Source of the DNA: Flavobacteriaceae bacterium
GTDB taxonomy: Bacteria; Bacteroidota; Bacteroidia; Flavobacteriales; Flavobacteriaceae
Reading direction: 5' to 3'
Length of the DNA stretch: 37,865 bases
Assembly (NCBI GenBank): GCA_947378465.1
Contig: CANCJZ010000004.1
Coordinates: 1-37,865, forward strand
The notes under the pieces are model-generated. The model ran no database searches. It saw nothing but the letters and a program-made list of their open reading frames with translations, and was not told where the DNA came from. Position numbers and translations under genes: made by a program. This document shows positions 26,657 through 37,613 of this stretch, piece by piece. The stretch's first letter is position 1. The number at the start of each line of letters is the position of its first letter.

Positions 26657-27799
26657 ATGATAATAGGAATTGATGCTTCAAACATTAGAAAAGGTGGAGG
26701 ATTGACGCACTTAAAGGCATTACTCCAACATGCTCAGCCTAAATCAGTAGGCATCAGTAAAATCATACTATGGTCAAGTGAGGCTACTTTAAAAGATATT
26801 CCTGAATTTATTTTTATAGAAAAAAGAAGCCATGCTTTGTTGAACAAATCCACCTTACATTGTTTTTTATTTCAATTTATTTATTTAAAAAAAGAAGCCG
26901 CTGACTGTGACCTACTATTAGTCCCTGGAGGAACGTTTATCAGCAGTTTCAGGCCTTTTGTCACACTATCACAAAATATGTTGCCTTTTGATGTTGAACA
27001 ATCAAAAGCTTATGGTTTCAAAATGAAACTTCGCTTGAAACTATTGTATTACACTCAATCCTATACCTTTAAAAGAGCGGAAGGTTTGATTTTTTTAACA
27101 CAATATGCCAAAAAAAACATCGTTACAAAAATGAAATGGGAACATCCTAAAGCAATCGTGATTCCACACGGTGTTCACCGTTCCTTCCAACTTCAACCAA
27201 GGTACCAACAAGAAGTTTCTTGTTACAACAAAGACAATCTCTTTGAGTTTTTATATGTTTCCTACATAACTGTTTACAAACACCAATGGAACATTGCTGA
27301 AGCGGTATGTCAATTACATCAATTGGGTTTACCTATTAAACTCAAGTTAGTGGGTAGTGTTTTGGATAGTTTTGATTTATTGAAAGATGTGTATCAGCGT
27401 TATCCCAACTCTAGCGAATGTTTGGAATATATTGGTGATATCCCGCACGAGGAATTAAGTCATCAGTATCATAATGCTGATGCTTTTGTCTTTGGTTCCA
27501 GTTGCGAGAATTTACCCATTATTTTGTTAGAAGCTATGATTGCAGGATTGCCCATTGCCTCTTCTAATTATGGTCCAATGGGTGAAGTATTGGGTTCCTC
27601 AGCGGTGTATTTTAATCCTTATAAAATTTCCAGCATTAAAAATGCACTCCAACTGCTATTTGAAAATCACGAACTCCGCCATTTTATAGCAAATAATACA
27701 TTTGACAAGGGGAAAAATTACACTTGGAATATTTGTGCGCAAAAGACTTTAAAATATACAGTAGAAAGGGCTCACCATTACCATCAAAAAAAACACTAA
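26657..27799 (+). CDS. glycosyltransferase GT4-like
   Basis: MIIGIDASNIRKGGGLTHLKALL; IPHGVHRSF; VFGSSCENLPIILLEAMIAGLPIASSNYGPM. Start set at ATG 26657. Confidence 0.88.
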   Translation: MIIGIDASNIRKGGGLTHLKALLQHAQPKSVGISKIILWSSEATLKDIPEFIFIEKRSHALLNKSTLHCFLFQFIYLKKEAADCDLLLVPGGTFISSFRPFVTLSQNMLPFDVEQSKAYGFKMKLRLKLLYYTQSYTFKRAEGLIFLTQYAKKNIVTKMKWEHPKAIVIPHGVHRSFQLQPRYQQEVSCYNKDNLFEFLYVSYITVYKHQWNIAEAVCQLHQLGLPIKLKLVGSVLDSFDLLKDVYQRYPNSSECLEYIGDIPHEELSHQYHNADAFVFGSSCENLPIILLEAMIAGLPIASSNYGPMGEVLGSSAVYFNPYKISSIKNALQLLFENHELRHFIANNTFDKGKNYTWNICAQKTLKYTVERAHHYHQKKH

Positions 27800-27801
27800 T
27801 T

Positions 27802-29724
27802 ATGTGCGGAATAGTAGGGATCATTTCCCAAAATACAGACCAACTTTTAGCGCCTGCTTTAGCGCGTATCGGCCATAGAGGTCCCGATAGTTCCGGAATG
27901 TACATCGATCAGAACCTGGGATTAGGTCACGCGCGATTGGCCATTCAAGATGTTTCCGAGAATGGACATCAACCTATGGTGAGTAGTTGTGGGAATTATG
28001 TATTGATTTACAATGGCGAAATATACAATCATCAAGAGATCCGATCAAAATTGAATGGCAAATACAGCTTTCAATCCCATTCGGACACCGAAACACTATT
28101 GTATGCCTATATTGAATATGGAAGGGAGGTGCTTACTCAATTGAATGGCATATTTGCCTTTGCTATTTATGATAAAATAAAAAAAGAATTGTTTATTGCC
28201 CGTGATCCTTTTGGAGTAAAACCCTTGTATTATTATGCCAGTAAAGAACTCTTTTGGTTCAGTTCCGAGATTAAATCCATAATTCCGCTCTCCATAACTC
28301 CTCAAATTGATAGCCAAGCTTTGGTAAATTACCTTAGCTTTTTATACAGTCCTGGGGAGAAAACACCCTTCCAAAAAGTATTGAAATTATTGCCTGGACA
28401 TGCAATGACCGTTCCTGTTGAATCACCAGAAGGATTTGTAATTACAAAGTATTATAAAATACCTTTTGAAGGAAAAAGAAGCGCCAAAACTGAGCAGGAA
28501 TTAATCGCTGAATTGGAACAAAAACTGATAACTGCTGTGGAACGACAATTGTTATCCGATGTCCCTATGGGTTTCTTTCTTTCTGGGGGATTGGATTCCA
28601 GTGCCATAGTTGCTCTTGCCAAAAAACTGCATCCCGAGAAAAGGTTCAATTGCTATACTATCAAAACGAATAATGGAGCCGATTTAGACGAAGGTTTTAA
28701 AAATGATCTGCATTATGCACGAATAGTTGCTCACCATTTGGATGTTAATCTGATTGAAGTGGATTCCACTATTGACATCATAAAGGATTTTGATAAAATG
28801 ATTTATCATCTTGACGAACCTCAAGCCGATCCTGCTCCTTTGAACGTATTGCAAATAGCCACTCAAGCTCGAAAAGACGGAATCCTTGTATTGTTAGGCG
28901 GAACTGCTGGCGATGATTTGTTCTCGGGATACCGACGCCATCAAGCCCTGCAAATAGAACGCTATACTGAAGTGATTCCGCTATGGATTCGAAAAGCAGT
29001 TCGCAAAATGGTCCATTCGTTACCCGCTGACAGAACACTGTTCAGAAGAGCACGCAAACTAACGCAACACATTCATCGCACACAAGAAGAACGATTGGTA
29101 GGGTATTTTTCATGGATGGACGTAACCACTATTCAACAATTATTTGCCTCATCTCATCAACAAAATATTCGCAATTATAATCCTTTGCAATTGTTCCAGG
29201 ACCAATTGCAAAACATTCCCCTTGAAAAAGAACTCCTCAACAAAATGTTGTATTTGGAACAGTGCTTTTTTTTAACCGATCACAATTTGAATTATACGGA
29301 TAAAATGAGCATGGCCATTGGCGTTGAAGTAAGAGTTCCTTTTTTGGACAAAGAACTCTTAGAGTTCAGTTGTAGCCTCCCCGTAGATTTGAAATTAAAA
29401 GGCGTAACGACGAAATATATTTTGAAAAAAGTAATGGAAAAATACCTGCCGCACGAGGTAATATACCGAAGCAAATCCGGTTTTGGAGCCCCCGTTCGAC
29501 AATGGATAAAAGAAGAAATGACCGTGTATATCGATGATTATCTTTCCGAAAAAGCAATAAACGAACGAAAGCTTTTCAACTTTAAAGCGGTTCAACAGTT
29601 AATAAAGGACAACCAAGAGGGAAAAATCGATGCTTCCTATACCATTTGGTCCTTATTGGCAATTGAATCGTGGATGCGACAATTTTATGATACTACCCCC
29701 ACCCAAAATCATTCAATACTATGA
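27802..29724 (+). CDS. asnB: asparagine synthase (glutamine-hydrolysing)
   Basis: N-terminal Cys MCGIVGI, RGPDSSG, GFFLSGGLDSSAIVALAKK; start set at ATG 27802. Confidence 0.93.
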   Translation: MCGIVGIISQNTDQLLAPALARIGHRGPDSSGMYIDQNLGLGHARLAIQDVSENGHQPMVSSCGNYVLIYNGEIYNHQEIRSKLNGKYSFQSHSDTETLLYAYIEYGREVLTQLNGIFAFAIYDKIKKELFIARDPFGVKPLYYYASKELFWFSSEIKSIIPLSITPQIDSQALVNYLSFLYSPGEKTPFQKVLKLLPGHAMTVPVESPEGFVITKYYKIPFEGKRSAKTEQELIAELEQKLITAVERQLLSDVPMGFFLSGGLDSSAIVALAKKLHPEKRFNCYTIKTNNGADLDEGFKNDLHYARIVAHHLDVNLIEVDSTIDIIKDFDKMIYHLDEPQADPAPLNVLQIATQARKDGILVLLGGTAGDDLFSGYRRHQALQIERYTEVIPLWIRKAVRKMVHSLPADRTLFRRARKLTQHIHRTQEERLVGYFSWMDVTTIQQLFASSHQQNIRNYNPLQLFQDQLQNIPLEKELLNKMLYLEQCFFLTDHNLNYTDKMSMAIGVEVRVPFLDKELLEFSCSLPVDLKLKGVTTKYILKKVMEKYLPHEVIYRSKSGFGAPVRQWIKEEMTVYIDDYLSEKAINERKLFNFKAVQQLIKDNQEGKIDASYTIWSLLAIESWMRQFYDTTPTQNHSIL

Positions 29725-31841
29725 ATCAAATCATTCAATCACTTAAAACAGGAGCTACCCTATTAGAACAACTTCCCGCTCCAGAAGTCAAAAAAGGACA
29801 AGTGCTGATTAGAACCAGCAGAAGCTTAATTTCCCTAGGTACGGAACGCATGTTAGTTGAATTTGGAAAGTCAAGTTTACTAGCCAAAGCCCAACAACAA
29901 CCGGACAAAGTAAAACAAGTGCTGAATAAAATCAAGACAGAAGGTTTGAAAACTACTTTGGAAGCGGTCGCTAATAAACTAGACCAAGCTATCCCCTTAG
30001 GTTATTGCAACGTTGGGAAAGTAATTGCTATTGGGGAAGGCGTAACTGAGTTTGCCATTGGCGATCGAGTAGCTTCCAACGGAGCCCATGCGGAATACGT
30101 GTGCATTCCTAAAAATCTGGTGGCACACCTTCCCAACAATGTCACAGATGAGGAAGCTACTTTTACAGTAGTAGGCGCCATTGGGTTACAAGGAATTCGT
30201 TTATTGAATCCTACTTTGGGGGAAACCATCGTAGTGATAGGAATGGGGTTGATAGGAATGCTTACCGCTCAACTGCTAATGGCCAATGGTTGTAGCGTAA
30301 TTGGAGTAGATCCCGATGAAGAAAAACTGCGCCTTTCACAACAATGGGGCATCATTCCATTTCATCCTAAATCAGAAGGAGATTTGGTTGCATTTGTAAA
30401 TTCAATCACCAATCACATTGGATGTGATGGCGTAGTGATCACCGCATCCAGCAAAACCAATGATATCATTAGTCAATCGGCGCAAATGTCTCGAAAAAGA
30501 GGGCGCATTGTGTTGATAGGAGTGGTTGGATTACAACTCAACCGAGCGGATTTTTATGAAAAAGAATTGAGTTTTCAGGTATCCTGTTCCTATGGCCCAG
30601 GGAGGTACGATGATCATTATGAGTTAAAAGGTCAGGATTACCCATTGCCATTTGTACGCTGGACGGAGAAACGAAACTTTGAAGCTGTTCTGCAAGCCCT
30701 AGCAACCTCTAAACTTCAGGTAAAAGAGATGATTAGCGAGGTAATTCCCTTAGCAGAGTATCAAAGAATTTACAATCATATTGGAACAAGTAAATCCATT
30801 GCTACTATTTTAAAATACGAGGAGAATAGTTTGGAACCATTGCAAACTATTGCCTTATCAAATTATAACTACTCCAAATCAAAAGCCTGCATTGGCATCA
30901 TTGGGGCAGGTAATTTTACCCAAATGACCTTATTGCCTCTTTTAAAAAAAACCAATGTCCAATTGTACAGTATAGCTAGTACCAACGGGATTTCAAGTAC
31001 AAGCTTGGCTAAAAAATACAACTTTGCGTTTTCCACTACCAATCATCAAAGCATCTTGGAGGATTCCAATGTCAATTTGGTGATGATTACCACCCGACAT
31101 AACAGTCACGCACAATTAGTATGTGAATGTTTACTTCAAAAAAAACACGTATTTGTTGAAAAACCATTGGCGATTACCACACCTCAATTGCAAGTAATAC
31201 TCAAAACCTATCAGCTAACAGAAGGTAAATACAGCATTTCAGTGGGCTTTAATCGTCGATTTTCACCTCATAGTCAAAAAATAAAAGCAGTATTAGGTAC
31301 GCTTCCAATGAATATAATTGCCACAGTAAATGCGGGCAGCTTGCCTCCATCCGCTTGGGTACACGACCGCAAGGTAGGTGGAGGCCGAATTATTGGCGAA
31401 GCGTGTCATTTTATTGACCTAATCACTTATTTAACGGGAAGCTTGGTGAGTAGTGTATGTATGAATGCAATGGAATGCAATCCTCAAGAAACCACTGACA
31501 ATGCGACTATTTTATTAAAATATAAAAATGGTTCTACAGGAGTGATCAATTACTTTTCAAATGGATCAAAAGCTTATGCCAAAGAACGGATTGAAATATA
31601 TTCCCAAGAGCGCACAGCCATTATTGATAACTTCCGAAAAACAAAAGGCTACGGATTCAAAGGATTCAGCTCCTTTTCTTCTTCAATGGATAAAGGACAT
31701 AAAAATCAATTAGAACAACTAGTACAACAACTGCAGCAAGGAACTCCCCCGATTATTCCTTTTGAAGAGTTAGTCAACACCACTCAAGCGGCTTTAGCGG
31801 CTATTGAAAGTTTGAAAACCAAGCAATGGATCACTATTTAA
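29721..31841 (+). CDS. bi-domain oxidoreductase: zinc-type alcohol dehydrogenase-like domain fused to Gfo/Idh/MocA domain
   Basis: MDR-type Rossmann VVIGMGLIGMLTAQLL, then second Rossmann CIGIIGAGNFTQMTLLPLL with EKPLAI; ATGA overlap with asnB. Confidence 0.9.
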   Translation: MNQIIQSLKTGATLLEQLPAPEVKKGQVLIRTSRSLISLGTERMLVEFGKSSLLAKAQQQPDKVKQVLNKIKTEGLKTTLEAVANKLDQAIPLGYCNVGKVIAIGEGVTEFAIGDRVASNGAHAEYVCIPKNLVAHLPNNVTDEEATFTVVGAIGLQGIRLLNPTLGETIVVIGMGLIGMLTAQLLMANGCSVIGVDPDEEKLRLSQQWGIIPFHPKSEGDLVAFVNSITNHIGCDGVVITASSKTNDIISQSAQMSRKRGRIVLIGVVGLQLNRADFYEKELSFQVSCSYGPGRYDDHYELKGQDYPLPFVRWTEKRNFEAVLQALATSKLQVKEMISEVIPLAEYQRIYNHIGTSKSIATILKYEENSLEPLQTIALSNYNYSKSKACIGIIGAGNFTQMTLLPLLKKTNVQLYSIASTNGISSTSLAKKYNFAFSTTNHQSILEDSNVNLVMITTRHNSHAQLVCECLLQKKHVFVEKPLAITTPQLQVILKTYQLTEGKYSISVGFNRRFSPHSQKIKAVLGTLPMNIIATVNAGSLPPSAWVHDRKVGGGRIIGEACHFIDLITYLTGSLVSSVCMNAMECNPQETTDNATILLKYKNGSTGVINYFSNGSKAYAKERIEIYSQERTAIIDNFRKTKGYGFKGFSSFSSSMDKGHKNQLEQLVQQLQQGTPPIIPFEELVNTTQAALAAIESLKTKQWITI

Positions 31842-31898
31842 TTGTTTTATTTTAAATAAATTAAAAATTTTATTTTATTAAAATAAAAAAATAGAGAC

Positions 31899-32234
31899 AC
31901 TTAAAAATAATGATTTTTCCTTTTCCAAAAACTATTTTTGAACGGGGAAAAATAATTTTAAAGGGGCTAAAACTATTTTTACCCCACGCATCAAATACTT
32001 TTGAAGCCTAAAATAATAGTTTTAAGCCCTATTGAATGTCTTTTGCATAGGGAAAAATCATTTTTGGAAAAGGAAAAATCATTTTTGAAGGCGCTGAAAT
32101 ACTTTTACCCCATTCAAAAATATTTTTTGAGGCTTCAAAAACAATTCTATAAAGTTCAAAAAACATTTTAGAAGCTTCAAAAAACATTTTGTAGCTTTCG
32201 TTAATTGTTTTTGAAAGGGGAAAAACCATTTTTA
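31899..32234. repeat. 16-unit tandem array, strict 21-bp period, highly diverged units
   Basis: Sequential 21-mers from 31899 all carry an A-tract then T-tract at the same register, e.g. catagggaaaaatcatttttg / gaaaaggaaaaatcatttttg / aaagttcaaaaaacattttag / aagcttcaaaaaacattttgt / aaaggggaaaaaccattttta. Confidence 0.88.
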
Positions 32235-32368
32235 AGCAGCAGGTTTCTTATAGGTTGTAGGCTTATTTTAAGTTTTATAGTTAGGTTATCCGTTTTTAAG
32301 AACTTTATAACCCATATAGTCACTCCCAACCTCCTACAACTTACCCCCTAAAAAATCTATTACCAAAA

Positions 32369-32402
32369 AAAACAGGTCTTTCAAAAATGAAACACCTGTT
32401 TT
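32369..32402. terminator. stem-loop in convergent intergenic region (possible bidirectional terminator)
   Basis: aaaacaggt..ttca-aaaa-tgaa..acctgtttt. Confidence 0.6.
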
Positions 32403-32443
32403 CAACCAAACTTTATTTACCTAATTAACTTTCTAAAATTAAT

Positions 32444-32468
32444 ACTCAATCGCATTGAGTTTTTTTTT
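32444..32468 (+). terminator. Rho-independent-like terminator
   Basis: actcaat-cgc-attgagt followed by a T-run. Confidence 0.7.
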
Positions 32469-32573
32469 GTTTTTAAGATTACCTCCAGGTTAGAGGAGAT
32501 AATCTCGAAACAAAACATATATAATCAAATAATGAAGATTCTAAATTTATATTAAGGACAGGTAAATGTTATG

Positions 32574-33632
32574 TTAACTTGTCCGCCGAGCACCGGCACC
32601 TGTTGTTCCAACAAAACCATTATCCGTAGTAGCACCACCGCCCGCTCCAATTACGGATCCGGCTGCCGTTGCTGGTGTCCCATTACCAAGTCCACCGATT
32701 CCTCCACCAGGACCCACTCCGTTACCGCCTTTAGCAGTCAAAGAATTAATTGATATTAAGGCACCATTTCCATTAATATTTGTAGTGCCTCCAGTTGCGA
32801 CTCCTCCAGTAGAAAGTTGATTCGTTTTCCCACCGCTTCCACCTGTAGCGGTCAAGGTAGTCCCATTATAAGTAGCAGTACTAGTACCCCCAGCAATCCC
32901 AAGAACAACAACTCCAGTCACTGGAGCCCCTCCTGTACCAACAGAATAACTAATCGTACTACCATAAGCTACAGTGATTACCTTGGAACAATAAGCGCCA
33001 CTAGCGCCTCCACTTGGCCACGGTGGATTGTATCCCATTGCACCACTACCGCCTCCTCCATACACCTCAACAGTTGCTTGTGTAACTCCATTAGGTATGG
33101 CTAAAGTTCCGCTTCCTGAAGTAAAGATATTTACGGCATTATATACAGTAATTGGATAAGTAGAAGTACCTCCATTATAAGTTGCTGTTATGTTTGTAGC
33201 TCCTGCCGAAACTCCAGTAATCACTCCAGTTGAACTATTAATAGACGCTACGGCTGGATTACTTGATAACCATGCAACTCCAGTAGTAATTCGAATTCCT
33301 GAAACATATACTTCAGGAGTTACGGTGCACCCTACTAATACATCCTTGGCAAAGGTCAAAATAGGTCGGTCGTTATTAGAGGACAAACAGAACGACCAAG
33401 CGCCATTTTCATAGGAACGGAGGCATTTAGATGTTTGATCGTAAATGAGCATCCCATTCACTGGAGCGATGATGTCCGAAACTTGCGCTACTCTTGGAAG
33501 CAATAAAGCTTTGTTCGTAGCTGTCAAATCTAAAATGGCATTGCTATCAGGACTTGTTGTTCCAATACCTACTTGGCTATAGCCAAAGCAGCTAAATAGA
33601 AATAAAATCAGATAATATAGTGTTGTTTTCAT
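32574..33632 (-). CDS. secreted glycine-rich adhesin-like protein with Big_2-like domain (C-terminus apparently frameshifted; unshifted stop would be 32552)
   Basis: N-terminus MKTTLYYLILFLFSCFGYSQVGIGTTSPDSNAILDLTATNKALLLPRV; Ig-like WLSSNPAVASINSSTGVITGVSAGATNITATYNGG; Gly-rich C-terminal half. Confidence 0.85.
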   Translation of the reverse strand: MKTTLYYLILFLFSCFGYSQVGIGTTSPDSNAILDLTATNKALLLPRVAQVSDIIAPVNGMLIYDQTSKCLRSYENGAWSFCLSSNNDRPILTFAKDVLVGCTVTPEVYVSGIRITTGVAWLSSNPAVASINSSTGVITGVSAGATNITATYNGGTSTYPITVYNAVNIFTSGSGTLAIPNGVTQATVEVYGGGGSGAMGYNPPWPSGGASGAYCSKVITVAYGSTISYSVGTGGAPVTGVVVLGIAGGTSTATYNGTTLTATGGSGGKTNQLSTGGVATGGTTNINGNGALISINSLTAKGGNGVGPGGGIGGLGNGTPATAAGSVIGAGGGATTDNGFVGTTGAGARRTS

Positions 33633-33665
33633 TTTAATTGTGTGTGTTTGAAAATTTGTTTCTTA

Positions 33666-34301
33666 TTATAATCGATAGGCAATGCTCACATTAGCAATAC
33701 TCATTTTACCGATATCGGTATTGGTCGCACTTCCTTTATTAAAGTCACCAGGATTTTTATCCACATTCAATAGTCCTACAAAACAATGAGCTTCCACAAG
33801 CCATTTTGAGGTAATATTATAGGCAATTCCTAAGGAAGGTCCTAAATCAAAATCCTTAATATAGGCATTGGGTTTCTCAGAATCGAATTTGTTGGTCCGC
33901 TCTCGTGCTGCATAGGCTATATAATTAATTTGTGGTCCTAATTGAAGGTTGAAATGTTGACTAATATTGTATTTCAATAACAATGGTAAACTGATGATGG
34001 ACATTTTTAATTTTTCTTCCACAGTGATGTAATAGTTTCCATAGTAGGGCCATATTTCAGTACGATTGGAATTGGCGTGGATTCGGATATAATCAATTTC
34101 AGGAATAAAACTAATTTTATCACTTAATGGGATTTCGCAGGCAAGTCCTATTTGATAGCCTATTCCGCCTTTCCAATTGGCTTGTTTCCCAGAAAAAAAT
34201 GCTGTATTGGCACCTGCTTTAATGGTAAAGCGCTCTTTCCTATCTTGTGCAGTCACTGAATTAACAACAGCGATTATGAATAATAGTATAATTTTTTTCA
34301 T
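33666..34301 (-). CDS. outer-membrane beta-barrel protein (PorT/OMP_b-brl-like)
   Basis: Signal peptide, FTIKAGANTAFFSGKQANWKGGIGYQIGLACEIPLSDKISFIPEIDY, C-terminal aromatic-type barrel strand IANVSIAYRL. Confidence 0.8.
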   Translation of the reverse strand: MKKIILLFIIAVVNSVTAQDRKERFTIKAGANTAFFSGKQANWKGGIGYQIGLACEIPLSDKISFIPEIDYIRIHANSNRTEIWPYYGNYYITVEEKLKMSIISLPLLLKYNISQHFNLQLGPQINYIAYAARERTNKFDSEKPNAYIKDFDLGPSLGIAYNITSKWLVEAHCFVGLLNVDKNPGDFNKGSATNTDIGKMSIANVSIAYRL

Positions 34302-34825
34302 AACATTGAATTGGTTTCTAATTGATCGCTTTTAAAATCATCTGAAACAAAATTAGAGACAATGGATTTAGGCTTGATGGTTAAACTTGCTTTAGCCTTG
34401 TTATTTTTGATTTTATTTTCAGTTATGGGCATATTTTTATGAATTAATTGAACTAATTCCACTGCATCTTCAAGAATGGCTTCCTTAATTTTTAATTCAA
34501 TAAAATCAAATTCTTTAACGATCAATAATTTATATTCGTAATCCTTAATCATAAGCGCAATGATAAATGCAGTTAGCACTTGAAAAAGGATAAGATTCGC
34601 GGTGGTTTTCAAGAATAAATAATCTACTGCAAAAGTGAGCGCAATAGCTACAATGAAGAAAAGATAGTTTTTGTGATACTTTTTTCTTTTGTATAAAAAA
34701 GTTTTCTTAATCAATTCCAAAGGGATCGTTAAGGTTGAAGAATCTCTGTAAATTTTTACTAGGGATGAAGTTACTATACCTATAGCATTTTCACCATTTC
34801 CGTTTTTTTTAGCTATGTTTTTCAT
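34298..34825 (-). CDS. hypothetical membrane protein (two adjacent TM segments)
   Basis: NYLFFIVAIALTFAVDYLFL and ANLILFQVLTAFIIALMI; 4-bp overlap with downstream OMP gene. Confidence 0.65.
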   Translation of the reverse strand: MKNIAKKNGNGENAIGIVTSSLVKIYRDSSTLTIPLELIKKTFLYKRKKYHKNYLFFIVAIALTFAVDYLFLKTTANLILFQVLTAFIIALMIKDYEYKLLIVKEFDFIELKIKEAILEDAVELVQLIHKNMPITENKIKNNKAKASLTIKPKSIVSNFVSDDFKSDQLETNSML

Positions 34826-34858
34826 TTTAGATTAATTCAGTAGTTAATAACAACTTTG

Positions 34859-35287
34859 TCAATTAATGTTTTTATCATTTGTGTGTCCTTCATTGGAACT
34901 GCTATGTATTATCTTTAATTCCTTTAGCTTTATGATCAAATATTTTAAAAACACTGTTTTTCTATCAAATAAATCCAAATAGATAATGCCCTCCATTTTG
35001 TACAAACTATGGTCAAAATTTTTGATGCGTGCTCCAAGAAAAACGGTATCCACTTTAGAATGTATATAACTCAAATTCAACACATCTTCATTGTGATTGA
35101 TGATTACCAAGGCGCAATCAAAATCCACCTTATCATAGGCATACAAATTTTTAGCACTTGCACATTGCTTGATGTCAAATGAATTTCCAAAAAAGCGATA
35201 GATCAATCTTGAATATCCTTTTGAGGTATCAAAAACCAAAACTTTTTTCTTTTGAATCGTAGTATTCGTTACGTCGTTCGTCTCCAT
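34859..35287 (-). CDS. hypothetical protein, possible degenerate response-regulator receiver fold
   Basis: KKVLVFDTSKGYSRLIYRFFGNSFDIKQCASAKNLYAYDKVDFDCALVIINH resembles a receiver beta1-alpha1-beta2-alpha2-beta3 pattern. Confidence 0.55.
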   Translation of the reverse strand: METNDVTNTTIQKKKVLVFDTSKGYSRLIYRFFGNSFDIKQCASAKNLYAYDKVDFDCALVIINHNEDVLNLSYIHSKVDTVFLGARIKNFDHSLYKMEGIIYLDLFDRKTVFLKYLIIKLKELKIIHSSSNEGHTNDKNIN

Positions 35288-35567
35288 CCTTTCAATTATT
35301 TATTTATTATTCTGACTTTACAGTAAATTATTATCTCCATGAGATAGGCATATAATTATCACTTAATTTTAGATATACTACTCAACTAATTCTGTCAATT
35401 GGAATTAGTAACTCTTACCTTCCTTTACAAAATTATTTAACAATAGAATGACAGAGTTTGTAATAATTGATTACTCATTATGAAATTTGACTAAAATTGC
35501 AATGATTGGCTTTTAAACAATCTATAATCGCTCTTAATTAACACATTAGATAAAACATTAAATTATT

Positions 35568-35751
35568 ATGAATGAGATATTTTATCAAATCCAGCAATCC
35601 AATATCAATTATAACAAGGAGGAAGTGAATACAATACTATTCTTTTGTAGAAGAATCGCCACTTGAAATTAAAATACATGTAGCGCTTTTAAAAAAAAAG
35701 GGGGACTATAATTGGCATTCCATTAGTGGGCAATTAATAAATAAGAAATGA
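35568..35751 (+). pseudogene. small (about 60 aa) ORF with apparent +1 frameshift, coupled to heparinase gene start
   Basis: Frame 1 MNEIFYQIQQSNINYNKEEVNTILFF, then, after a tttt tract, frame 2 VEESPLEIKIHVALLKKKGDYNWHSISGQLINKK*, whose TGA overlaps ATG 35748; length 184 nt = 3n+1. Confidence 0.5.
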
Positions 35752-37613
35752 AACGACTAACACTTGCTTTTGAATTGGTGAAAAATATGGGGTTTCGGTA
35801 TGTCCTGTATAGAATTTGGTTTTTCTCCCAAAAAAAAGCAGGTGTTTTAAAATACGTCCATCCTACTAAGCCAAAGTCCCTTTTTTATATTAGTCTTGAT
35901 CAATGGAGAAATACTCCTTCTCATTTTTTATTTGAAAATAGAAAGGCTTTACATTTTAAAAGAAAACCATCTTTCATTTTAAAAGAAAAAGCAGAACGTA
36001 TATTGAATGGCGAAATCCAATATTTCAGTAATGAATGGATTCCTTTGGGAAATGAGTACAATTGGATTACCAATCCTGATACCCATTACGAATACAACAA
36101 TGCACAACATTGGAGCGAGATTAACGATTTCAACACTGCTCAAGGAGATATTAAATATGTATGGGAAAAATCGCGCTTTAGTTATTTGATTACGCTGATG
36201 CGTTACGACTATCATTTTGACGAAGATCATTCCGAATTTGTATTTAAAGAAATCGATAGTTGGATTCAATGGAATTCGATAAATCAAGGTCCAAACTGGA
36301 AGTGCAGTCAGGAAATTTCGTTGCGATTGTTTAATTGGATGTATCTTTTGAATTTTTATAAAGATTCTATTTATTTGACTCCTGAGTTGTGGGCTAAGAT
36401 TCAAAATGTGCTGTATTGGCAATTGCACCACATTTACCATCATATCCATTTTTCGCGTATTGCAGTTCGAAACAATCACGCATTGACGGAAACCTTAGCG
36501 TTAAGTTTGTCGGAGTTGTTTTTCCCCTTTATTCCTGAGGCAAAAAAATGGAGCAAACGAGGACGTAAGTATTTTGAACAAGAAATCGATTATCAGATTT
36601 ATGCTGATGGGGCCTTTATTCAACACAGTATGAATTACCATAGAGTGTTGATTCAGTTGTTGAGTTTTGGATTGCATATCACTCAAAAAGCACAAAAGCC
36701 TTTTTCCAAAAAGGTATATAATAAAGCCTATCAGAGTTTGAATTTCCTTATTCAATTTGTTCAAAAAGAAAATGGGTATTTGCCTAATTATGGCGCCAAT
36801 GATGGCGCTTGGTTTTTTCCATTAAGCGATAGTGAGTATAGGGATTATCGTCCGCAATTGAATAGTTTGCACACCTTACTTACGGGAAGCCCAATTTTTG
36901 GAGAACAGGAAGATTTTTTTGAAAGGCAAGAAAGTCGTTACTCCTATCCCCGAATAAAAATCCAAATGGGGATGGTGGTTTTTGAATCATCAGGCTATTA
37001 TTTGTTTAGAAAAGAACATTCTTTTACTTTTATAAAATGCGGTAGTTATAGGGACCGACCTTCCCATGCGGACAACCTACATGTGGACATTTGGTGTAAA
37101 GGAGTAAATATAATTAGAGACAGCGGTTCCTATAAATATAATACTGATGAAAGAAGTTTCAAATACTTTTTTGGGACCTTATCCCATAATACTGTGATTG
37201 TGGACAACCACGACCAAATGCTCAAAGGAGGTCGCTTTATATGGTATTATTGGTCCAAGGCATTGGTCGTAAAAACTAAAGAAACCGAGGAAGCATTTAT
37301 CTTTGAAGGTACGATTAAGGCTTTTCAACAATTGGGAGGGATTCATCACAAACGAAGACTTGTTATTTATAAAAATAAAAACTTATGGGAAATCAAAGAT
37401 GCAATAATTGCCCCTAAGAATCATAAAACACATCAATTATGGCATAGCCTCCCTGATGCTGATCTTTGTGAATTAGAGATTCAATCGGACAGTTCTTTAG
37501 GAAAAGAGTATTTGCAATCCTATTATTCTTCTTTTTATGGATCAAAAGAACTTCAAAATTGCATTGCCTTTGAATTTAAGAATAAGATAAAAACCAGAAT
37601 TTCTTTAAAATAA
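35748..37613 (+). CDS. heparinase II/III-family polysaccharide lyase-like protein
   Basis: RNNHALTETLALSLSELFFP, IQHSMNYHRVLIQLLSFGL, RDRPSHADNLHVDIWCKGVNIIRDSGSYKYN...FFGTLSHNTVIVDNHDQM. Confidence 0.9.
   Translation: MKRLTLAFELVKNMGFRYVLYRIWFFSQKKAGVLKYVHPTKPKSLFYISLDQWRNTPSHFLFENRKALHFKRKPSFILKEKAERILNGEIQYFSNEWIPLGNEYNWITNPDTHYEYNNAQHWSEINDFNTAQGDIKYVWEKSRFSYLITLMRYDYHFDEDHSEFVFKEIDSWIQWNSINQGPNWKCSQEISLRLFNWMYLLNFYKDSIYLTPELWAKIQNVLYWQLHHIYHHIHFSRIAVRNNHALTETLALSLSELFFPFIPEAKKWSKRGRKYFEQEIDYQIYADGAFIQHSMNYHRVLIQLLSFGLHITQKAQKPFSKKVYNKAYQSLNFLIQFVQKENGYLPNYGANDGAWFFPLSDSEYRDYRPQLNSLHTLLTGSPIFGEQEDFFERQESRYSYPRIKIQMGMVVFESSGYYLFRKEHSFTFIKCGSYRDRPSHADNLHVDIWCKGVNIIRDSGSYKYNTDERSFKYFFGTLSHNTVIVDNHDQMLKGGRFIWYYWSKALVVKTKETEEAFIFEGTIKAFQQLGGIHHKRRLVIYKNKNLWEIKDAIIAPKNHKTHQLWHSLPDADLCELEIQSDSSLGKEYLQSYYSSFYGSKELQNCIAFEFKNKIKTRISLK

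Follow-up and report, generated by a model that had tools for sequence, protein, structure and literature searches.

What is a run of sixteen diverged 21-bp units, all held in one register, doing between two converging genes of a flavobacterial genome? The run lies in the window, by which we mean the whole stretch of 37,865 bp that was analysed, and the features needed here are the following:

31899..32234, no strand: array of 21-bp period with 16 diverged, in-register units, each with a core close to cAAAAAnnaTTTTTg and a variable G/C-containing segment
31909..31931, plus strand: left arm of a perfect 23-bp inverted repeat (units 1-2 against units 8-9)
32061..32083, minus strand: right arm of the same inverted repeat
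29721..31841, plus strand: flanking gene of 706 aa, a fused zinc-dehydrogenase / GFO-IDH-MocA oxidoreductase, convergent on the array
32574..33632, minus strand: flanking gene of 352 aa, a Big_2 and glycine-rich secreted-type protein, convergent on the array
32369..32402, no strand: hairpin AAAACAGGT...ACCTGTTTT outside the array, a probable terminator

Splitting the sequence from position 31899 reproduced, without phase slip, the 16 units of 21 bp that an earlier note on this DNA had described, together with the A-tract followed by a T-tract and the variable G/C segment (columns 8-12 are mostly A and columns 16-20 mostly T). The convergent intergenic setting was likewise as it had described, with the plus-strand gene ending at 31841 and the minus-strand gene at 32574. 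Autocorrelation bore out the period: the array matched itself at 0.533, 0.520 and 0.527 for lags 21, 42 and 63, compared with 0.299 ± 0.028 (mean ± SD) at lag 21 in dinucleotide shuffles, and no lag in any of 1000 shuffles exceeded 0.419. TRF returned the array in three pieces with periods 20 and 21, a fragmentation that we attribute to the strong divergence of the units.

The array matched no Rfam family at gathering score, and weaker Rfam matches were judged to be chance. A CRISPR was rejected as a candidate, given that there is no constant repeat with unique spacers and no Rfam match and that the adjoining genes are not Cas genes, and a plasmid iteron array was rejected because no replication protein adjoins. 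The array stands at the edge of a polysaccharide-type gene cluster (27724-37613), whose members in the window include the fused dehydrogenase/GFO-IDH-MocA oxidoreductase listed above as well as an asparagine synthase-like gene and a heparinase-like ORF (35748-37613), the last two named by eye.

The 21-bp arrays of the genome of origin

BLAST together with R1, a sequence-only profile built from 17 four-unit windows, found further arrays in the same genome on contigs C94, C76, C1, C162/C58, C107, C23, C180, C187 and C51; R1 matches within genes (L126, L128) were taken to reflect the usual periodicity of coding sequence and were excluded. A lag scan that is blind to sequence and scores self-similarity at any lag, run over 374 kb of this genome, picked out 17 regions for a lag of 21 and 18 for a lag of 42, compared with 3 for a lag of 20 and 0 for a lag of 22. 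Under a stricter rule about 17 arrays were counted in the same 374 kb, 15 of them outside predicted genes. Nearly all arrays of this genome had periods of 21, 42, 63 or 84 bp, and their units were mostly unrelated (e.g., AGTAGTGGCTCAGTCTACTTG, CAACACCATAAATCGCCATTG and CTACATTTATGACGTACTGTG). The earlier suggestion that the period is conserved rather than the exact sequence thus gained strength, since 21 bp is kept across dozens of arrays with unrelated units. By extrapolation to 3.05 Mb, we infer some 100-140 arrays in the genome. Array counts are low estimates, because the assembly, of metagenomic origin and in 318 contigs, has several contigs that break off within arrays. On contigs C162 and C58, an identical array stands at the ends (L033, L034) and the sequences then diverge, an indication that the array breaks the assembly.

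An empty-site comparison of an orphan array beside dnaK found only the dnaK side in common with relatives. Among the class-B arrays, no shared element was found outside the array, as the flanks gave only short AT-rich matches.

Short tandem repeats of 7 bp are also frequent in this genome, with 17 regions at lag 7 in the 374 kb, for example at L152:15747-16015 (AATAGGC) and L136:114-248 (ACTGAAC). The 21-bp arrays resemble such 7-bp STRR and minisatellites in being intergenic tandem repeats, but they show no sub-period of 7 bp and are linked to one protein family (see below), and no comparable enrichment was seen at 14, 28 or 35 bp.

The protein gene downstream of the arrays

Downstream of several arrays in other genomes we noticed a gene for a protein of ~227 aa, which we call AAP, for array-associated protein. 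An array sequence is a poor BLAST probe across species, so that the R1 profile and then the protein itself were needed. AAP is rare, occurring in 1 of 61 Flavobacterium genomes and 4 of 250 Bacteroidota genomes, and our species-genome search placed it in Flavobacterium, other Bacteroidota, Verrucomicrobiota, Planctomycetota and Armatimonadota. Many of the genomes compared are metagenome assemblies, with kinship and names as annotated. The gene is often present in multiple copies per genome (~15 in one Verrucomicrobiaceae), and the genome of origin carries four, which fall in three separate clades. AAP was found neither in IMG/VR contigs by pattern scans nor in phage and plasmid records by tblastn, and a phage or plasmid origin was set aside accordingly.

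No Pfam family was found among 29 homologues and no NCBIfam family in the three proteins tested. The AlphaFold2 model (29 homologues; pLDDT 93) predicts two long helices (residues 9-30 and 34-73) and two shorter ones (100-113 and 119-125), followed by a beta sandwich. The two shorter helices carry a conserved RIKA..YTxAIGxxLGI stretch, the only locally basic part of a protein with a median pI of 6.1. In the model, the C-terminal part matches fibronectin type III folds, no solved structure was found that resembles the helical N-terminal part, and no enzyme or DNA-binding domain is evident.

The linkage between gene and array is close. All four AAP loci of the genome of origin adjoin an array with a period of 21 or 42 bp. 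In the first named set, an array with a period that is a multiple of 21 bp lies directly upstream of 27 of the 28 loci that could be evaluated, and in a second set the same holds for 51 of 55; the loci of the second set that lack one are three partial genes and a diverged gene that has a 24-bp repeat. A random phylum sample, whose loci were not chosen for arrays, added 6 of 6. Taken together, such an array occurs within 700 bp upstream of 88 of 92 evaluable AAP genes from four phyla (the diverged-gene locus with the 24-bp repeat, which failed in both sets, is counted once). Within 700 bp downstream of AAP, the second set showed four array regions only, mostly of the 7-bp type. Lag 21 was the strongest among lags 15 to 30 in 78 of 81 AAP arrays, and the mean self-match at multiples of 21 fell from 0.585 to 0.445 out to 210 bp, with neighbouring lags at ~0.30. 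Most arrays measure 200-400 bp, and the distance to the gene is usually <350 bp; their GC content, ~28 to 65%, tracks genome GC (r = 0.80). The importance that had been given to A-tracts did not survive this comparison, as arrays at 55-65% GC retain the 21-bp period. At AAP loci (L186/L187, L312, L317, L319, L309), the 21-bp array often adjoins, on its immediate 5′ side, a tandem repeat of 8 bp (GCTCCACG at L186, for example), which may mark an element boundary.

A period of 21 bp is also seven codons, and the arrays could accordingly be, or once have been, repetitive coding sequence. At least one open frame was indeed present in 55 of 79 AAP arrays (43 expected from column shuffles), and a 66-aa frame overlaps part of the window array. 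However, no frame is open through the window array, with 2 to 14 stops in each of the six frames; stops likewise interrupt all frames of the arrays at L030 and L031, array composition has no strand bias relative to the AAP gene, and the arrays have no common reading frame or peptide. We consider a coding origin extremely improbable.

A full element comprises the 21-bp-period array, a leader of ~100-140 bp, one AAP gene and usually an intrinsic terminator. At three loci of F. restrictum, leader, gene and terminator share ~95% DNA identity and the DNA outside differs; in several genomes, paralogous AAP loci are alike from the gene end back to about -100 to -140, where the array puts an end to the homology. 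From this we conclude that turnover is much more rapid in the array than in the gene, with the period kept.

This turnover bears on whether AAP might be a classical DNA-binding protein specific for its own unit, with the arrays as operators or iterons that co-evolve with it and the orphan arrays as its regulon. Array similarity does climb with AAP identity (mean 0.54-0.56 below 40% identity and 0.71 above 70%, the rise occurring only above ~70%), the arrays occupy an upstream regulatory position, and the window array falls in the class of one AAP array of its own genome. Yet L294 and L296, whose AAPs are 92% identical, have unrelated arrays (similarity 0.64), the arrays of L331 and L332 (84%) are likewise near background similarity, most orphans in the genome of origin belong to classes without a match among the four AAP arrays found there, and AAP lacks a recognisable DNA-binding domain. 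Near-identical proteins with unrelated arrays argue against strict sequence-specific recognition, and we regard this explanation as unlikely.

The window itself contains no AAP gene, and neither a gene nor a remnant was found near its array. Without AAP within ~700 bp downstream, the window array is an orphan of the array type and not a complete element. By BLAST it matches the C76 array, which precedes the AAP gene P0001, with an E value of 5e-10, and its best 42-mer identity is 0.76 with the C76 array (L031) and 0.81 with L030, over a background of 0.54-0.58, values to which shared AT-richness contributes. Its sequence class comprises the P0001 array and the arrays at C94 and C162/C58. Because its units resemble the P0001 array above the level of unrelated AAP arrays, we read the window array as very probably an orphan (solo) copy of the AAP-linked type and of that class, an assignment made by sequence comparison. 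Upstream of the C76 array lies a small ORF (L031:2329-2595) with IGGNRPVGE-type repeats of 9-13 aa, encoded by a 39-bp DNA repeat.

Orphan arrays were common only in the genome of origin. Under the stricter rule, no intergenic arrays were found in 600 kb of AAP-less Flavobacterium and related genomes, none away from AAP genes in 200 kb each of F. restrictum (G172) and the Verrucomicrobiaceae genome G423, and two in 200 kb of G416.

Symmetry, folding and predicted curvature

Units of the window array occur in both orientations with the register kept, and its longest perfect inverted repeat, at 23 bp, exceeds what column shuffling yields (mean 12.8, maximum 20 in 200 shuffles). The units of AAP arrays are imperfect palindromes, with a best-centre complementarity of 0.548 vs 0.470 when columns are permuted.

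Inverted units would also arise if the arrays were a functionless by-product of mutation, in which slippage or template switching, perhaps promoted by AAP, duplicates sequence in 21-bp steps and inversion at the dyads scrambles the units. The unrelated units, the dependence of array GC on genome GC and the massive expansion of orphans in one genome only are also in keeping with such an origin. Diverged arrays, the window array with its 16 units among them, nevertheless hold their register through homopolymer runs where indels would be expected, and the linkage to AAP extends across four phyla; we therefore consider a mere by-product quite unlikely.

The earlier note had further proposed that each core is a small dyad that could fold if transcribed. 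A strong predicted fold was found on both strands (z ~ -7.6), but it comes from complementary units elsewhere in the array, and the pairing within single units was not supported by covariation. These data touch on the possibility that the arrays act single-stranded, as chains of RNA hairpins or as cruciforms under supercoiling, in termination, RNA stability or replication. Besides the fold on both strands and the location between convergent genes, real units outfold column-shuffled ones (z = -5.2 for the window array; mean -2.28 over 65 arrays), and some arrays have compensating arm changes, such as the L169 units GTAG..CTAC and GGTG..CACC. Against this, the arms within units of the window array do not covary (p = 0.79), and covariation in other arrays is weak and comes from a test biased by choosing the best centre on the data, which we do not use as proof. 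A long RNA structure would moreover not need an exact 21-bp period, and the arrays lie 5′ of AAP genes, whose terminators are 3′. A single-stranded role is, in our judgement, improbable.

Intrinsically curved DNA with phased A-tracts has been described (PMC3940949), and the earlier note had proposed curvature for this locus. In a DNA-wedge model, strong curvature is indeed predicted for the window array and reaches its maximum at a uniform spacing of 21 bp; the ratio of end-to-end distance to contour length is 0.105, vs 0.755 for shuffled sequence, and the array is predicted to be nearly circular over ~200 bp. Among periods 17-26, modeled curvature is greatest at 21 for the window array and for the AAP arrays as a group. 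The model uses assumed wedge parameters and tends to predict curvature for whatever sequence has a strict 21-bp period, so that the geometry fits without showing selection for bending. AT-rich arrays, including the window array, are thus like phased A-tract DNA in their in-phase A-tracts and strong predicted curvature, whereas AAP arrays as a type differ from it in joining a 21-bp array to an associated gene and in holding the period without A-tracts where they are GC-rich.

A possible protein-carrying scaffold

A period of 21 bp corresponds to two helical turns. Plasmid iterons are direct repeats of ~17-22 bp upstream of a Rep gene and are bound by the adjacent protein. Like those of the Rep_3 (RepA/RepE) type, AAP arrays are tandem repeats of about two turns directly upstream of one protein gene, and the R1 profile in fact recovered a true iteron case: at L129:1-98 (G357:C131), iterons with a period of 21 bp (TATAAGCTAAAAAACAGTTTT) immediately precede a Rep_3 initiator gene. 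A ParA gene lies further downstream of this Rep_3 gene, on a plasmid contig. Two turns per unit, dyads in either orientation, the lack of strand bias and the upstream position give the AAP arrays their resemblance to iterons. They differ, however, in being chromosomal and multi-copy, in that AAP is not a Rep protein, in their many orphans and in that units differ between near-identical genes.

A second known system for comparison is that of the REP/BIME sequences with their RAYT transposases (GTAG and CGTC families), which are short intergenic dyad units (PMC3733652). Like AAP arrays, REP/RAYT sequences reach many copies in some genomes, stand in part beside a dedicated protein gene and are patchily distributed. 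Unlike them, AAP arrays have a strict 21-bp tandem period, no fixed terminal tetranucleotide was seen in them and their protein is not a tyrosine transposase. For the window array, this identity was rejected, because the two Y1_Tnp genes of the genome of origin have no adjoining 21-bp arrays; neither a GTAG nor a CGTC tag recurs among its 16 units. Near one Y1_Tnp gene of this genome (L375:561-1093), there is an array of 41-bp lag (ACTCTTTTTGGTCAGACATA / ATTCTTTTTGGTCAAAAACAA), whose units seem to be 20 and 21 bp long in alternation; near the other IS200/RAYT-like gene (L374:1178-1284), a weak repeat of 22 bp is present.

Our preferred reading, to which we assign a probability of roughly 45% as a whole statement, is that the window array is the orphan array half of a two-part element and that such arrays are iteron-like scaffolds that carry protein. 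The array would act as double-stranded DNA, with each 21-bp unit forming one imperfectly palindromic site, and the spacing of two turns would place all sites on one helix face. Several molecules of a single protein, for which AAP is the simplest candidate, could then line up there with loose sequence recognition, and the array may bend coherently. An array beside an AAP gene would set AAP expression, and orphan arrays, the window array included, would be extra sites in trans or leftovers. Several findings count against a scaffold of AAP: the protein is not basic overall, its N-terminal fold has no match among solved structures, AAPs that are nearly identical can have unrelated arrays, orphans are common only in the genome of origin, and the window array has no AAP remnant nearby.

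Alternatively, AAP and the array might form a new class of element that propagates itself, with AAP, or a process involving it, writing and maintaining arrays quantised in 21-bp steps from any upstream sequence and seeding orphans at other chromosomal sites. To this proposal we give a low probability.

Array and gene together apparently constitute an undescribed bacterial genetic element. No published description of a 21-bp array/AAP element was found in the open-access literature searched, though an earlier one is possible, and to our knowledge a fixed 21-bp period without a fixed sequence fits none of the repeat classes REP/RAYT, iterons, CRISPR and STRR. The element offers a simple handle, namely one small protein gene with one array directly before it, and genomes with up to ~15 copies exist. 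Variation in intergenic tandem repeats has been noted in environmental bacteria, e.g., in Planctomycetota (PMC9426551), and AAP-type arrays may account for some of it. More broadly, the arrays suggest that what a genetic element conserves can be its DNA geometry and not its sequence.
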